Origin: Verrucomicrobiota bacterium
GTDB taxonomy: Bacteria > Verrucomicrobiota > Verrucomicrobiia > Verrucomicrobiales > DEV007
Assembly (NCBI GenBank): GCA_020630975.1
Contig: JAHDID010000010.1
Coordinates: 1-56,464, forward strand
Reading direction: 5' to 3'
Length of the DNA stretch: 56,464 nucleotides
Shown: one piece after another, positions 2,705 to 8,833 of the stretch
Layout: the number at the start of each line of letters is the position of its first letter
How positions within the stretch are numbered: the stretch's first letter is position 1
Program-made: the position numbers and the translations under genes
Notes under the pieces: model-generated
Told to the model about the DNA's origin: nothing
The model's database searches: none
The model's input: the letters and a program-made list of their open reading frames with translations, nothing else

Positions 2705-3127
2705 CTACGACACACTCAATATACCGCACCTTATCTGGACCTGTCGGATTTCAACGCATTCTATACGATTTAGTCGCAGTAGGTTTACGGTGACTCTTCC
2801 GATTGCGGTTTGAGCTTCGATATGGCCTGAACTAAGAAGCTGAAAGTGGTCCGTCCAGCGGTCATTGCGGGGGTGGAACAAGCGCACGATTGCATCTGAT
2901 ACTGGATCTATTGAGCTGAGATCTGTTCCCTTGTATTTGTTGCACAGGCAACATGCGAGAGCCAGATTCTGAGACTCTGTTTCGCCGTTATGTTTTTCAG
3001 CGATGATGTGCTCAACTTCGTGAGAAAATAAGCCCTCTCCTTCGGGTTGCAGGCAATATTCACAGGTTAATCCAGCTCGCTCCCTGACTTCTCGCCTCAG
3101 ATTAGCAGGAACATAAGTTTTACTCAT
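2705..3127 (-). CDS. HNH endonuclease
   Basis: A 140-residue HNH nuclease. The sequence shows CEYC near the N-terminus, HEVEHIIAEKHNGE as the metal-binding beta-beta-alpha core, an asparagine in NLALACCLC, and CCLCNK as the second zinc-type pair, followed by KGTDLSSIDP, which is typical of this subfamily. The start is taken at the ATG inside ATGAGTAA, overlapping the stop of the upstream small gene by 8 bp; an upstream in-frame start would give an implausibly longer overlap. Translation is therefore probably coupled to that gene. I recall this same two-gene arrangement from other bacteria. Whether it acts in defence, as a toxin or in mobile-DNA maintenance is not known. Confidence 0.85.
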   Translation of the reverse strand: MSKTYVPANLRREVRERAGLTCEYCLQPEGEGLFSHEVEHIIAEKHNGETESQNLALACCLCNKYKGTDLSSIDPVSDAIVRLFHPRNDRWTDHFQLLSSGHIEAQTAIGRVTVNLLRLNRIECVEIRQVQIRCGILSVS

Positions 3128-3485
3128 CAGCGTCTGTAGCAAGCTTCAACCTGGCCTGAGCCTTTGACTTGCGGACCATCTGTTCGAGACGCTCATAGCG
3201 CTGCCATTCTAGTTCTTCAGAGGCACTAAGACCGCCAGTTTGCTTGCTTTTCTCTAGCAGTTGGGAAACACGGTGCTGTAGCACTGGTGAGGGCTTTAGA
3301 GCGATTACCTCTTCTGGTTCGGGGAAATTGGCAAAGACTTCCAGCAAATCGGCTTCTCCGGTATACCCTTCGTGACTACCACCGTCCCAATATCGGAACC
3401 CGCATTCTAGCACCTCGGGTAGGGAGGTGCCTGCGTCGTTCACTTTATCACGCAGCGCTTCTGGAACTTCGATGGTTAATTCCAT
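3120..3485 (-). CDS. Small partner protein of the HNH endonuclease
   Basis: This 121-residue protein begins MELTIEVPEALRDKV, a short beta-strand/helix opening like that of small antitoxin or DNA-binding proteins. The middle has FPEPEEVIALKPSP, and the C-terminal half is highly charged and helical (ELEWQRYERLEQMVRKSKAQA). It overlaps the HNH gene by 8 bp, so the two are made together. The ATG giving MELTIEV was chosen over one six codons upstream because the motif is the conserved start I remember for the family. By position and composition it could be an antitoxin or specificity partner, but this is inference from context only. Confidence 0.75.
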   Translation of the reverse strand: MELTIEVPEALRDKVNDAGTSLPEVLECGFRYWDGGSHEGYTGEADLLEVFANFPEPEEVIALKPSPVLQHRVSQLLEKSKQTGGLSASEELEWQRYERLEQMVRKSKAQARLKLATDADE

Positions 3486-3577: not shown

Positions 3578-4702
3578 TCACAACAGTGGATTCCAGTAGC
3601 TCGGTGGCCAGCCTTTCATTCCCTGTGGGAGCACGCCTGTGGGTGCCTCGGGATCTAGGCGGAAGGAGACGGCTAGGGGGAATTCTCCGGGCTCTCGGAT
3701 GCCGGCTATGTTGGTGTTTCCGTAGTAGGAGCCCTCGGCTACCATCTTCAGCTGGGTGATGCGACCTTGGTCATCGCCTCGGATATGGCCTAGGACATGG
3801 GCGGTGTAGCCTGCTTGGTTCTTTTCGCTCTTTAGCACGAAGCTACCGGAGAGCTTGCCGTCGACTAGGGTTAGCGATTCGCTGATGATGTCTTGTTTTT
3901 TCCAGCGTTTGGGTTCGCCCAGAGTGTTGTCGATGAAGTGATATCGGAGTAGGCGATATTTGATCTCGTCGGTTAGAGTGTTGTCTAGCAGTCGTTTTTG
4001 TTCGTCGGCAGTCAGCCAGAGGAAATCTTGGGAGACGGGTGAGTCGGTTTGGGCGATTGCCTTGGCATGGACTCGGGCGATCACGGCACCGGCAGGGAAA
4101 CGTGGGGTGGTCTTGAGGTCGGGAGTGGGCACGGTGAGCTTGGGCATGACCTCTGCGGTGCTGGGGGCGAAAGTGTCTAGTACATCGACTAGCTCTTTTT
4201 TGAAAGTCGGTAGTTGCCACTGGTTCAGTCCAGCGCTTTTTGAGTAGAGCAGCTTACCGCTGGGTGATACTAGGTAAAAGCCCTGTGTGGTTTTGCCCTT
4301 TTCGTAACCACGTTGTTTGACGATGCTCCAGTAGTATTCGCCCTCCTTATCGCTCTGGCGGCGAGTGTAGAATTGGTCAATCGTTACTGGTATACACTTT
4401 TCTCTGATCGTAGTGAGCACCACATCATCTTCAAACATCAACGCACGGTCGACGACGCCATTGTTTCACACACAGCCGATGGGGTGGCCATCCATCGCCC
4501 AGATGAAGATAGGTTTGCCAGTGTCTACGGAGCGATGCTGAGCCTCGACCAGTGAGGTGAGCCAGCCTACGGAGGTCCATTTCTGTCCGGCTGCAGGTTG
4601 GACAGTGGACATGAGGGTTTGAAAGCGTTCTTCGCTGATCTGGTTGAGGCCGACGCCTGTCGTGAGACATAGCATGCTCAGTGTGCATAGAAACTTTATC
4701 AT
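3578..4702 (-). CDS. Thioredoxin-like secreted protein, probable selenoprotein (TGA read as Sec79)
   Basis: Read through one TGA (4468-4466), this is a continuous 374-residue frame. Residues 1-20 form a signal peptide. Residues 66-110 look like a thioredoxin-fold core: KPIFIWAMDGHPIGC77-V-[TGA79]-NNGVVDRALMFED, then a strand IREKCIPVTID and later QGFYLVSPSGKLLYS, where a thioredoxin would have its C-terminal strands. The C-terminal half is a separate beta-rich region of unknown function. The frame is open on both sides of the TGA without any shift, and the TGA falls where a redox Cys would sit, making a C-x-U pair. A SECIS-like hairpin follows 11 nt later. A recent nonsense mutation is the alternative. 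No selenocysteine machinery lies in the window. Confidence 0.65.
4436..4454 (-). promoter_or_regulatory. SECIS-like hairpin after the in-frame TGA
   Basis: In the transcript, 11 nt after the UGA, CGUCGAC (4454-4448) pairs with GUUGAUG (4442-4436) in seven base pairs, two of them G-U, around the loop CGUGC. The apical loop starts about 18 nt after the UGA and has a G in its first two positions, which fits the loose bacterial SECIS rules (stem-loop in the coding sequence just after UGA). Short hairpins of this kind also arise by chance. Confidence 0.4.
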
Positions 4703-4818
4703 GACTATGATTAGAGTACTTTTGGGTAGGAGGAAAGCAAAGCTAGCAGCGGATATTCGTAGGGGCTCCCCTCTGAATAAAGCGTGACAGAGGGAAGGGC
4801 TAGTTGGTAAAAAGGGGT

Positions 4819-5655
4819 ATGAAATTGAGCGAAGAGCAGCTGAGCGCGTACCGGCGCGATGGTTATTTGTTTGTCAGCGGTCTGCTCGATCAGGAGGAGG
4901 TGGGCCTGCTGCGAGAGACGGCTCAGGCAGATCACGCCATGGATCAGGCGTCTAGCTCTAGAGACGATGGTGAGGGAAATGATGTGCGGCTCGCGCTGTG
5001 GAATCACCCTGGGGATGGTATTTATGGGATGATCGCCCGCGCGAGGAAAGTGGTCGAACCAGTGGAGCAGATCCTCGATGACGAGGCCTATCACTACCAC
5101 TCGAAGATGATCCTGAAAGATGCCAAGACAGGAGGCGCCTGGGCATGGCATCAGGACTACGGCTACTGGTACCAAAACGGGGTGCTCACGCCGAATCTGT
5201 GCAGTGTGATGATCGCTGTGGATCGGGCGACTCAGGAGAATGGCTGCCTGCAGGTGCTGAGAGGGTCGCATCATCTCGGGCGGGTGAATCATGTGCTATC
5301 TGGGGATCAGGCTGGTGCGGACATGGAGCGAGTCGAGGAGGCAAAAAAGCGCATGGAATTGGTCCATTGTGAGCTGGAGCAGGGCGATGCGGTCATCTTT
5401 CATTCCAATCTATTGCACTGCTCGGCGTCGAATGAGTCGGACCACTCACGCTGGGCGATGATCTGCTGCTACAATGCCAAGTCGAATGATCCCTACAAGG
5501 AGTCGCATCATCCACGCTACACCAAGCTGGATAAAGTAGAGGATGATCAGATCCTAGCAGTGGGTAGAGATCGCTCGGCTAGAGCGGCGGTGGATTATGT
5601 GGATCTCGATAGTGATGATCATAGTGCCAAGGAGCTAGAGGAGGAGCTGGTATGA
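4819..5655 (+). CDS. Phytanoyl-CoA dioxygenase (PhyH) family protein
   Basis: A 278-residue non-heme iron(II)/2-oxoglutarate-dependent oxygenase. The iron-binding facial triad is visible as His111-x-Asp113 in WAWHQDYGYW and His200 in SNLLHCSA, with Arg211 in HSRWAM likely to bind the 2-oxoglutarate carboxylate. The core between them (GCLQVLRGSHHLG) is characteristic of PhyH. The ATG after AAAAGGGG was chosen over a TTG five codons upstream. Its stop overlaps the next start as ATGA, so it leads a three-gene operon with an epimerase-like TIM barrel and an oxidoreductase. The substrate is unknown; the neighbours suggest a sugar or polyol rather than a fatty acid. Confidence 0.88.
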   Translation: MKLSEEQLSAYRRDGYLFVSGLLDQEEVGLLRETAQADHAMDQASSSRDDGEGNDVRLALWNHPGDGIYGMIARARKVVEPVEQILDDEAYHYHSKMILKDAKTGGAWAWHQDYGYWYQNGVLTPNLCSVMIAVDRATQENGCLQVLRGSHHLGRVNHVLSGDQAGADMERVEEAKKRMELVHCELEQGDAVIFHSNLLHCSASNESDHSRWAMICCYNAKSNDPYKESHHPRYTKLDKVEDDQILAVGRDRSARAAVDYVDLDSDDHSAKELEEELV

Positions 5656-6476
5656 ATTTAGGTATCATCAATAGCGCTTTTTCTCAGGCAGGTGTCGATA
5701 CCAAGACTGGGCTGGAGCATATCGCTCGGATTGGTTTTGATACGGTCGATATTTTTACTGAGGCGATGTCGATCAGCGAGGAGGAGATCCGGCTGATCGA
5801 GAGCACCTGCCAGGCGAATGGGCTACCTATCATCTCTCTGCCGGTGGTAGCGATTGGGTTGATTGATTTCAATGATCCAGTGCGGGAGTTTCATGTGAAT
5901 CGTTGTAAAAAGTTCATCGATTTGGCGAAACGACTGGGAGCGAAAAATATATTACTGGTCTTGGGAGAATACATTTGGCAGCGCGAAGTGATTCCTCCAG
6001 AGGACCAGTGGCAGTGGGGAGTGGAGACAGTGCGTGAGCTGGGCGAGTATGCGGCGACAGCCGGTATCGAGATCGCTCTGGAGCTGGAGCCGTTTCGCCT
6101 GAGCCTGCTCAATAATATCTCCGAGATGGTTCGCTTTGTCGACGACTGTGCGATGCCCAATGTGTTGGCCAATATCGATATCAGTCATCTGGTGCTGGCC
6201 GATACTTCGGCTCAGGAGGTGGCGCAGCTGCGCGGCAAGGCGGCGCATGTACACATCAGCGACTGCGATGGCAAGGTGCACGGGGATCTGCCGCCGGGGC
6301 GTGGGGTGGTGAAGTTTGCACCCTATCTGCAGGCGATCAAAGAACTGGAGATCGATGGGACTGTATCGATCGAGCTCGAGTATTCTCCAGATCCGGCAAA
6401 GATCGTAGAATGGGTCGAGGAAGCCTATCAATCGACAGCGGACCTGATGAACCAAGTCGGACTACGCGATGCCTGA
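5652..6476 (+). CDS. Sugar phosphate isomerase/epimerase family TIM barrel
   Basis: The 274-residue protein has the AP-endonuclease-2/xylose-isomerase-like barrel: GFDTVDIFTEA early, AKNILLVLGEY, the metal-ligand strand IEIALELEPF, NVLANIDISHL, the histidine-bearing VHISDCDGK and a final glutamate in TVSIELEYS. Members isomerise or epimerise keto-sugars or inositols using a divalent metal. It overlaps the PhyH gene by ATGA and the following oxidoreductase by 8 bp, so the three products are probably made in fixed ratio and act on one substrate. No signal peptide; cytoplasmic. Confidence 0.85.
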   Translation: MNLGIINSAFSQAGVDTKTGLEHIARIGFDTVDIFTEAMSISEEEIRLIESTCQANGLPIISLPVVAIGLIDFNDPVREFHVNRCKKFIDLAKRLGAKNILLVLGEYIWQREVIPPEDQWQWGVETVRELGEYAATAGIEIALELEPFRLSLLNNISEMVRFVDDCAMPNVLANIDISHLVLADTSAQEVAQLRGKAAHVHISDCDGKVHGDLPPGRGVVKFAPYLQAIKELEIDGTVSIELEYSPDPAKIVEWVEEAYQSTADLMNQVGLRDA

Positions 6477-7569
6477 GGACGATCACGATAGTGAGTATGG
6501 GCTGAGCGTGGCAAAGGAGGTGCGCGAGATCGAGCCGCCGGCTATCGACTACCTGCCTCCTGCTCCCCAGCACTACCGTCCCAGGATAGGACTGATCGGT
6601 ACAGGCGGTATCAGCGAGATGCATCTGCGAGCCTACCAAGCATGCGGCTGGGATGTGGTAGGTATGACCAGCCGCACCCTAGCCAAGGCAGAGTCGCGGC
6701 GGGATGAGTTTTTCCCCGAAGCAAAGGTCTACACCGATAGCCAGGCGCTGCTGAGTGATCCCGATATCGATGTGGTAGACATCACTCCACACCCACAGGA
6801 GCGCCTACCTATACTGGAGGCAGCCATCGATGCGGGGAAACATATACTCAGCCAGAAACCCTTTGTGCTGGATCCGGCGGAGGGTGTTAGGCTGGCTGAA
6901 AAAGCTGAGCGAAAAGGAGTGAAGCTAGCCGTGAATCAGAATGGCCGATGGGCGCCACACTTTGCCTATATAAGGCAGGCGATCGATACCGGTTTGATCG
7001 GCGAGGTGACGAGTGTCGATTTCGTCCTGCAGTGGGATCAGACGTGGGTGGCGGGAAATCCTGATTTCGAGAAGATCCATCACCTCATTTTGTTCGATTT
7101 TGCGATCCATTGGTTCGATATCGCATCGTGTTTCATGGGTGATCGCCGGGCTGAGTCGGTGTATGCCTGCGCTACGAAGTTTGGCGCTCAGAGCTTTGGT
7201 CCGCCCGCGCTAGCTTCTGCGATCATCGAGTATCCTGGGGCACAGGTGCGGATGGCCTTTCATGCGCACACACAGCTGGGCGAGGAGGACTGCACCACCG
7301 TAGTGGGCACTGAGGGAACTTTGAGAAGCCGAGGGCCTGGGCTGAATGAACAGCCTGAGATGGAGTTATACCTGCCTGATGGACAGGCGCGAGTGCCGCT
7401 GCAGGGTTGTTGGTTTGAGTCGGGCTTTCAAGGCGCTATGGGAGAGCTGCTATGTGCCATCGAGGAGGATCGAGAGCCTTACCACTCGGCGGCGAATAAT
7501 CTGCGCTCTCTAGAGCTGTGTCTGGCAGCGATCGAGAGTGCAGATAGTGGCGAGGTGAAAAGGCTCTGA
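6469..7569 (+). CDS. Gfo/Idh/MocA family oxidoreductase
   Basis: The 366-residue product has a Rossmann nucleotide-binding start at residues 41-52 (IGLIGTGGISEMH), the family strand DVVDITPHPQERL, and the catalytic lysine motif in HILSQKPFVLDPAEG, followed by the C-terminal substrate domain (LFDFAIHWFDIASCFMG). Such enzymes oxidise or reduce sugars and inositols with NAD(P). It ends the PhyH-epimerase-oxidoreductase operon; the start ATG lies within the last codons of the epimerase gene. The first 40 residues are a longer N-terminal lead than usual and have no signal peptide. Confidence 0.9.
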   Translation: MPEDDHDSEYGLSVAKEVREIEPPAIDYLPPAPQHYRPRIGLIGTGGISEMHLRAYQACGWDVVGMTSRTLAKAESRRDEFFPEAKVYTDSQALLSDPDIDVVDITPHPQERLPILEAAIDAGKHILSQKPFVLDPAEGVRLAEKAERKGVKLAVNQNGRWAPHFAYIRQAIDTGLIGEVTSVDFVLQWDQTWVAGNPDFEKIHHLILFDFAIHWFDIASCFMGDRRAESVYACATKFGAQSFGPPALASAIIEYPGAQVRMAFHAHTQLGEEDCTTVVGTEGTLRSRGPGLNEQPEMELYLPDGQARVPLQGCWFESGFQGAMGELLCAIEEDREPYHSAANNLRSLELCLAAIESADSGEVKRL

Positions 7570-7607: not shown

Positions 7608-8642
7608 CTAGCCTTCGGTTTTGGAGTAGGTCTGCCAGGCGGCTTTGATGTTTGCGGCATCTGCGTTGCCTTCGTGGAGGATGATGCGGTGTTTCAGGGT
7701 GATGGTCTCGCCTTCCGCCAGTGTGATATCGCCGGACTCGTCTTCGCCTGCGACCTCTTTCAGAGCAAAGGGATTGGCGGTGAATAAGCCGTAGGTGCGC
7801 ACGTGCCACGGGGTCGGGTAGCGAAAGCTAGAGGGGTGATTGAGCATGGCGATGCCCATTTGTTTTCCGTCGACCAGTCCGTAGAAGTCGACCCACGGAG
7901 CGCGTTTGCCCCAGGCATCGGCATCTTTATCGCCAGCGCTATTGACGATGTGGCCACCCTCTCCGGCATCGACACATATGCTGTGGGCGACGCGTATGCT
8001 CAGGCCAGAGTCTTTTTTGCCAACGATCTCTGTGCCGCCATGAGCTCCGTGTAGCGAGATGGTGGCATCGATGATGCGCGAGCCGTCTGCTGCTACATGG
8101 AAATCGAATTGGCGAGTCTGGGTGAGGTAGACTTTGCCCTCGGGACAGACATTCTCGGTGTGGGTGATGAGCGTAGCCGTGTCTCCAGCGGCGGTAGCAG
8201 TGACGACTTTTTTATGAACCTGCTTGCCCATATTTGCCAGTTTGGCCTCATTCACTTTGCCATTTTTGGTGAAGGTCAGGCGCTCGTGCCAGGTATTGAA
8301 TCCGCCTGCCTCCTGTAGGCCAAAACAGATCGACCGATGATGTGGGTGGTCCTGCTTTTCGCCTTCGACATCTTTCATCGGGAAGTTGCGAGTCATCTCG
8401 ATGCCATCGGGGCCGATGACTGGCCAGAAGTAACATTTGTTGGTCTCAGCATCGCTGGTCACATAGCGGGTAAAGAGTTCGCCATCGATGTGGATGGCGA
8501 TATCGCCGCTAGACTCCTGCTCGATTGAGAATTCGGCTGCCCCCAGTTGGCCGAGTAGCAACGATAGCGCTGTGAGGGTCGTGCAGATTATTCCCAGAAT
8601 GGCACGAGAACAAGATAGGCGCTGCAATTGCCGAAGACTCAC
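7608..8642 (-). CDS. PmoA family (DUF6807) secreted protein
   Basis: About 344 residues with a signal-peptide-like start (GIICTTLTALSLLLGQLGAA) and the DUF6807 beta-sandwich: PVIGPDGIEMTRNFPM, DHPHHRSICFGL with a His-rich motif near residue 110, and NHPSSFRYPTPWHVRTYGLFTANPF. Proteins of this kind are annotated as PmoA-like in Verrucomicrobiota and Planctomycetota and sit among glycan-utilisation genes; the reaction is unknown. The start is uncertain: GTG at 8642 and TTG at 8627 both give a signal peptide, while an ATG further upstream would run the frame through a large inverted repeat and was avoided. It follows a sulfatase on the same strand. Confidence 0.82.
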   Translation of the reverse strand: MSLRQLQRLSCSRAILGIICTTLTALSLLLGQLGAAEFSIEQESSGDIAIHIDGELFTRYVTSDAETNKCYFWPVIGPDGIEMTRNFPMKDVEGEKQDHPHHRSICFGLQEAGGFNTWHERLTFTKNGKVNEAKLANMGKQVHKKVVTATAAGDTATLITHTENVCPEGKVYLTQTRQFDFHVAADGSRIIDATISLHGAHGGTEIVGKKDSGLSIRVAHSICVDAGEGGHIVNSAGDKDADAWGKRAPWVDFYGLVDGKQMGIAMLNHPSSFRYPTPWHVRTYGLFTANPFALKEVAGEDESGDITLAEGETITLKHRIILHEGNADAANIKAAWQTYSKTEG

Positions 8643-8645
8643 GCT

Positions 8646-8732
8646 CAAGGAGGGGCTGCTTTTAGCTGCCCGACAGGCTGTGCCATTTGCTTCGGCCGAG
8701 GTAGCCGGGCAGCTAAAGGCAGCCCCTCCTTG
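8646..8732. repeat. 27-bp inverted repeat, palindromic element
   Basis: The arms 8646-8672 and 8706-8732 are inverted copies matching at 26 of 27 positions, with a 33-bp loop. The arm begins CAAGGAGGGGCTGC and ends GCAGCTGCCCG-like. It lies just upstream of the PmoA-like start, so on the minus transcript it would form a strong 5' hairpin. It is either a REP/MITE-like insertion or a leader structure; on the minus transcript the first arm carries AAGGAGG. Confidence 0.85.
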
Positions 8733-8833
8733 AACCCTAAAATTTGCCATGTCATTTGCTTGTCGTGAGATCATGCTGAAAGGTTTCAAAACACGGAGGC
8801 TTGTCAAGATGCGGGTCGGAGGGGCGGGTAGTG

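Follow-up and report, generated by a model that had tools for sequence, protein, structure and literature searches.

A conserved in-frame UGA points to a selenoprotein family with a thioredoxin-like fold in Verrucomicrobiota and Planctomycetota

Does the lone TGA that interrupts a long minus-strand reading frame in the genome of a Verrucomicrobiota bacterium end a gene, or does it encode selenocysteine (Sec)? The frame lies in the window, i.e., the whole stretch of 56,464 nucleotides that was analysed. The original prediction had described it as 374 codons long and open except for the single TGA, which falls two residues past Cys77 in a thioredoxin-like protein. Translation reproduces both the frame and the spacing (Table 1), and with the TGA read as Sec the active-site motif becomes GHPIGCVUNNG. 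The further expectation that usual annotation would miscall the gene is borne out as well, for a plain listing of open reading frames (ORFs) of at least 90 amino acids recovers only the piece downstream of the TGA (3578-4441, from a TTG start). Ordinary gene calling would split or truncate members of such a Sec-containing, thioredoxin-like family. Taken together, a conserved UGA, the presence of the Sec machinery and covariation in a downstream hairpin make it very probable that the TGA is a Sec codon and that the gene encodes a real selenoprotein, a reading that appears about as firm as sequence data permit.

Table 1. Features of the putative selenoprotein locus and its flanks, in positions of the window.
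Feature	Positions	Strand	Basis
Predicted selenoprotein gene of 374 residues, ending in TGA (3580-3578)	3578..4702	minus	Translation with TGA as Sec; near end-to-end alignment to relatives
Putative Sec-encoding UGA codon, residue 79	4466..4468	minus	TGA in 80/80 relatives
Cys77 codon, CxU partner	4472..4474	minus	Cys at -2 in 80/80 close relatives
Gln140 codon, cis-Pro position of thioredoxin fold	4283..4285	minus	Profile alignment to VPGUxxT; strand 141-145 directly after
Hydrophobic, signal-peptide-like N-terminus, residues 1-19 (limits approximate)	4646..4702	minus	Crude hydropathy
Predicted thioredoxin-fold domain, residues 40-182	4157..4585	minus	AlphaFold2, VIA-align
Predicted C-terminal beta-rich domain, residues 190-374	3581..4135	minus	AlphaFold2 of domain alone, pLDDT 85.1
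Bacterial SECIS-like hairpin; stem 4454-4448 / 4442-4436, loop CGUGC 4447-4443	4436..4454	minus	Fold, synonymous constraint, shuffle test, covariation
Sulfatase	1236-2642	minus	
HNH protein	2705-3142	minus	
DUF6807 protein	7608-8807	+	

Conservation of the codon was assessed with relatives gathered by a scan of GTDB genomes, using six peptide patterns that included the TGA codon in no case. The scan produced 85 confirmed relatives, 80 of which were kept; nearly all are from Planctomycetota and Verrucomicrobiota, and phyla beyond these two were reached solely in this way. Every kept relative has TGA at the identical codon together with the Cys two residues before it, and TAA or TAG occurs at the site in none of the 80, with the caveat that the relatives are not independent, so that counts and p-values from them are overstated. 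A stop codon falls within the locus in 78 relatives, where the terminal codon is TGA in 36, TAG in 23 and TAA in 19. The window gene and 51 of these 78 were joined in a 52-gene codon alignment from which near-copies and genes with uncertain starts were omitted. Also omitted were two relatives that run off their contigs (L095 and L099), one with a second TGA 95 codons past the Sec codon (L100) and one with an extra in-frame stop upstream, inside the match (L054). Codon 79 is the sole all-TGA column of this alignment, and 41 columns are invariant across the window copy and the 51 relatives.

The family is sparse within a draw of 387 genomes from the window's own phylum, where it was found in just two (the source genome and one other), both with TGA. 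Two divergent paralogues on other contigs of the same genome (C57 and C16) likewise have an in-frame TGA, within the motif GHPCGETUNNG. Among 392 genomes of Planctomycetota, 112 match a first profile at E <=0.01 and 121 match a broader one at E <=1e-5, both figures including some weak matches from outside the family. The Sec site is spanned by 135 of the 150 listed matches from that phylum, with TGA in 126 of the 135, and at least 90 of the 392 sampled genomes have a TGA-bearing match across the site. Six very distant matches (L269, L271, L276, L278, L279 and L280) also have TGA at the aligned site, in motifs such as RCU and GVCU, and are perhaps further Sec-bearing subfamilies.

A selenoprotein gene calls for the means to decode it, and the Sec genes of the source genome had been named as a check by the original prediction. 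All were found: selA (522 bits), selD (301 bits), selB (272.6 bits, or 296.5 with its in-frame neighbour, against a cut-off of 242.25) and a tRNA-Sec (58.6 bits) with the anticodon UCA (tca). SelB also scores above its curated cut-off in 37 of 43 genomes bearing relatives, in a test that was given 43 of the 80 loci. In Planctomycetota, at a SelB threshold of E <=1e-60 chosen to exclude EF-Tu, 85 of 90 genomes with a listed TGA match have SelB versus 151 of 302 others (Fisher p 1.6e-16, relatedness ignored). The TGA carriers that have no SelB match at 1e-60 (5/90) or none over the cut-off (6/43) likely reflect incomplete assemblies. SelB is missing from four of the nine genomes that have a non-TGA match listed across the site; two of these four have Ser there and one has Pro, and the match in the last, G778, is a Cys row. 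A selD lies on the window's contig itself (L010, G000:C77:100264-101181); its frame of 763 amino acids is open without an internal stop and is longer than the 311-position SelD model.

Downstream of the UGA, a hairpin of seven pairs with the loop CGUGC had been described as starting 11 nt after the codon and as consistent with a bacterial SECIS (bSECIS), and it is present just as described. The published bSECIS model has a loop of 3-9 nt, a stem of 4-16 bp, a G within the first two loop positions, a UGA-to-loop distance of 16-37 nt and an energy of at most -7.5 kcal/mol (PMC13188914). In shape, the window hairpin fits, with its 5-nt loop, 7 bp, a G in second place followed by U, and a distance of 18 nt from the UGA. 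Its own energy is -5.6 kcal/mol versus the model's -7.5, while that of relative L021 reaches -12.1. Dinucleotide shuffles fold as well as the window hairpin in 51 of 200 cases for the 22-mer and in 17 of 200 for the 19-mer. The 45-nt region following the UGA in the window folds differently, at -10.1 kcal/mol (z +0.3), and over 105 sequences the same 45 nt give a weak folding-energy signal against synonymous shuffles (mean z -0.27). A search of window positions 4380-4480 against Rfam gave no family match. Since its own energy is modest, the window sequence taken alone is no proof of a SECIS; that comes from covariation across the family.

When synonymous variation in the 52 genes was judged against the expectation from their codon usage, the five least variable of 121 conserved degenerate columns proved to be codons +1, +4, +6, +7 and +9 after the UGA. 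Of these, +6, +7 and +9 belong to the stem-loop of a single hairpin. Among the five columns, the Arg at +7 is CGT in 51 of 52 genes, out of six possible Arg codons, an Asp is GAC in 51 of 52 and a Ser is TCG in 45 of 49. Over all nine downstream sites the contrast in codon entropy has a Mann-Whitney p = 0.06, its strength residing in five of the nine. Five core pairs of the stem hold in 98.9% of cases across 70 distinct main-subfamily sequences, compared with a mean of 90.8% and a maximum of 93.4% in 1000 shuffles, and with 9-41% in register-shifted controls. Between codons +5 and +9 the third bases pair as C-G in 54 sequences, G-C in 12, U-A in three and G-U in one, and between +6 and +8 as C-G in 68 and U-A in two; a change at one third position is thus met by a fitting one on the other side of the stem. 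All five core pairs persist in the window copy, one of them as G-U, and its stem is lengthened to seven pairs.

For a bSECIS-shaped hairpin, stability also exceeds the synonymous-shuffle mean in 96% of the 52 main-family members and in 98% of 47 members of a second subfamily (L149 excluded from these tests), and four control offsets, run on the main family, gave no hairpin excess. For the second subfamily, a six-pair stem as drawn showed no clear covariation, being 73.3% paired against a shuffled mean of 71.8% and maximum of 74.8%, so that its hairpin has the energy test as support. In the main family the hairpin downstream of the UGA is under selection at the RNA level, and covariation, synonymous constraint and the shuffle test with its controls uphold the reading of it as a SECIS.

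These data bear on several other explanations for the interrupted frame. Were the UGA read through as some residue other than Sec, by a suppressor or as a leaky stop, conservation on both sides of the codon would be accounted for, as it strongly implies translation past the stop. This is nonetheless very unlikely, given that 80 relatives yielded no TAA or TAG at the site, that the family is associated with SelB, that SECIS-like pairs covary and that tRNA-Sec is present. A sequencing error or a decayed gene might be suspected from the long branch of the window copy (1.63 changes per column), which means that it evolves faster than its kin, but the same TGA recurs in all 80 relatives from other assemblies and the invariant columns held in common with the 51 aligned relatives have been kept, which leaves the idea extremely improbable. 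As for a genome-wide reassignment of UGA to an amino acid, nothing in its favour was found, and its probability is close to negligible: the window gene itself and the 36 relatives noted above terminate in TGA, which already refutes such a reassignment, and just a single TGA column occurs in the 52 genes. Selenocysteine is thus the preferred reading of codon 79.

If residue 79 is Sec, what replaces it where it is missing? The original prediction had looked to homologues with either Cys or Sec at this position; Sec homologues proved to be many, but no Cys homologue was counted in the family. Among 165 spanning matches to an all-subfamily profile in the collected loci, distinct by the core around the site, residue 79 is Sec in 155, Ser in six, Asp in one, Pro in one and Cys in two. 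The Cys rows (L152 and L266, along with the weak L151) are without the NGHP..NNG motif and resemble other thioredoxin-like proteins; as weak matches with the family motif missing, they were rejected as members by judgement. Cys forms were sought in the GTDB contigs, the 387 genomes drawn from the same phylum as the window and the listed matches from the 392 Planctomycetota, and plasmids were also searched for Cys homologues with no match. The queries used carried Cys at the Sec site, so the search was biased toward finding such forms.

Sec has been lost in eight members, which have Ser, Asp or Pro instead, through four changes on an 80-sequence tree, four being the minimum forced by well-supported branches. 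The Pro row (L143) sits on a long branch and is of unsure placement. One genome (L148 in G537) has both forms, one with Sec and one with Ser, within a single 3-kb stretch. Because sites that lose Sec turn to Ser, Asp or Pro and Gln140 disappears along with it, the active site appears to need Sec itself. There is about an even chance that this is a Sec-obligate family with no Cys version, in which Sec can be abandoned but not downgraded to Cys, since the chemistry would depend on a pairing of Sec with Gln140. According to the 2025 deep-Sep paper (PMC12013277), every selenoprotein known so far now seems to have a Cys homologue, and its method could overlook those without one. A widespread family without a Cys form in these searches would be a candidate counter-example, and one in which to ask what Sec does beyond Cys. 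If the candidate holds, discovery methods based on Cys/TGA pairs would be blind to such a family, and others may remain unseen.

The thioredoxin-like core proposed for the protein is borne out by the predicted fold. AlphaFold2 on the family alignment gave a model with pLDDT 89.5, and VIA-align matched its residues 40-182 to AGR3 (3ph9_B; Z 12.3, rmsd 3.2, 123 residues). A cytochrome c biogenesis-related domain of Bacteroides (3f9u_B; Z 12.3, rmsd 3.5, 132 residues), DsbH (Z 11.1) and the C-terminal domain of DsbD (Z 9.6) also matched. Foldseek with the whole model returned no match at E <0.001. In the model, Sec79 immediately precedes a helix of residues 80-89. A hydrophobic N-terminal stretch occurs in 46 of the 52 aligned members by a crude hydropathy criterion, and the protein is probably exported, judging from this signal-like segment. 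The C-terminal domain has no clear known relative in PDB sequence (no match at E up to 1), Foldseek or VIA-align searches, the nearest being START domains (Foldseek E 0.007) and Cap15, a lyase and nitrobindin (VIA-align Z <=5.5).

What partners might the Sec have? The CxU arrangement of the original prediction stands in the window and its 80 close relatives, yet the Cys is not fixed family-wide: 136 of the 155 distinct matches with Sec have it at -2, while the two paralogues carry Glu there and a Cys at -4. Such a pattern would fit an optional resolving thiol. Residue 140 behaves differently. Of the 152 Sec rows with a residue at this position, 148 have Gln and the other four S, E, V and W; the eight Sec-less members have Glu, His, Gly or Asp instead, never Gln. 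Since Gln140 tracks Sec in this manner and across the four losses, a Sec-Gln catalytic pair is suggested. The active site of glutathione peroxidases comprises Sec, Gln, Trp and Asn, and the new family resembles them in that Gln is conserved together with Sec on a thioredoxin-like fold, a likeness of co-conservation rather than of geometry; no sequence relation to glutathione peroxidase was seen in Pfam and NCBIfam family scans. By this analogy, it is rather probable that Gln140 lies by the selenium and tunes it.

A conceivable scheme runs as follows. With SelB docked on the hairpin, ribosomes would insert Sec at the UGA, and the signal-like N-terminus would export the protein. The thioredoxin-fold domain would then set the Sec79 selenolate at the start of the active-site helix, where selenium could work with Gln140 in place of the thioredoxin cis-proline. 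The activity may be that of a thiol-dependent peroxidase of the cell envelope, a tentative assignment, proceeding through a selenenic acid and then a selenenylsulfide with Cys77 or, where Cys77 is absent, with another thiol. The protein might instead act as a disulfide reductase or isomerase like DsbD or DsbH, as its nearest solved folds (AGR3, DsbH and the DsbD C-terminal domain) and signal-like N-terminus would suit. Weak Pfam similarity points the same way, to Thioredox_DsbH in 36 of 52 members (best E 0.0009) and Thioredoxin_7 in 23 of 52 (best E 0.0018). Against this, there is no CxxC, the cis-Pro position holds Gln and the -2 Cys is missing from 19 of the 155 Sec matches, and a reductase or isomerase is a somewhat doubtful alternative to the peroxidase.

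Comparison with known systems helps to place the family. Thioredox_DsbH (PF03190), Thioredoxin_7 (PF13899), the DsbD C-terminal domain and AGR2/AGR3 have CxxC or variants of it, with a cis-Pro. The new family has their common fold over residues 40-182 and weak profile similarity to them, but it differs in placing Sec in a CxU without CxxC and Gln140 at cis-Pro. Closer at hand is VPGUxxT (types 1 and 2, NF041382 and NF041383; OS_HP5), which has a related thioredoxin fold with Sec in the same active-site region and also occurs in Planctomycetota. By hhalign the two align with 93% probability (E 3e-7), in an exact register that is unsure, as Cys77 is set on the Sec of VPGUxxT and Sec79 on its following Cys. 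The window protein scores 11.4 bits against NF041382 (cut-off 350), and the best E to NF041383 among 52 members is 0.0004 (cut-off 275 bits). The motifs differ as well, VPGUxTC in the one and GHPLGCTU in the other, the VPG(U/C)xxT motif being missing from the window protein. Unlike the new family, VPGUxxT alternates between Sec and Cys, with Cys in 6 of 25 loci, and the Gln140 position, which profile alignment puts on its Pro, holds Pro in most of 17 aligned sequences and Gln in three (by eye). By these comparisons VPGUxxT would be a distant relative. Eleven of its Planctomycetota relatives have two in-frame TGA codons (L201, L203, L204, L210, L212-L214, L218-L220 and L222), a second Sec being possible there.

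TsoC (NF045708, NEPxGxxU) shares the spacing of a PxGxxU motif. Nothing scored over its cut-off in 29 family-carrying genomes, the two weak hits of the source genome being on other contigs. Kinship based on this likeness was not supported, TsoC giving no hit at E up to 1 at the gene or at either paralogue. The protein falls under no model of Pfam or NCBIfam, the nearest being VPGUxxT type 2, Thioredox_DsbH and Thioredoxin_7, and the family is absent, by names and motifs, from Table 1 (119 families or subfamilies) of a 2026 review (PMC13188914). No mention of it was found in the literature covered; prior notice is possible in sources outside that coverage, i.e., most subscription papers and table S9 of PMC4807772, where selenoproteins proposed for two planctomycetes are given. 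Table 2 of PMC2398784 has an entry for a marine selenoprotein family named 'Unknown', with 15 sequences and 0 Cys homologues, which might or might not be related. This is, then, a large bacterial family that is apparently uncatalogued, and its novelty is likely.

No conserved neighbourhood was evident from clusters of ORFs across the 80 loci and the window. The largest adjoining clusters (25 and 14 loci) include ORFs antisense to the gene itself, and another 14-locus cluster and a sulfatase cluster of 11 adjoin it in a minority of loci. In the window, beyond the neighbours given in Table 1, positions 4804-7569 of the + strand hold a divergent run of overlapping genes for a PhyH dioxygenase, a xylose-isomerase-like TIM barrel and a GFO/IDH/MocA oxidoreductase.
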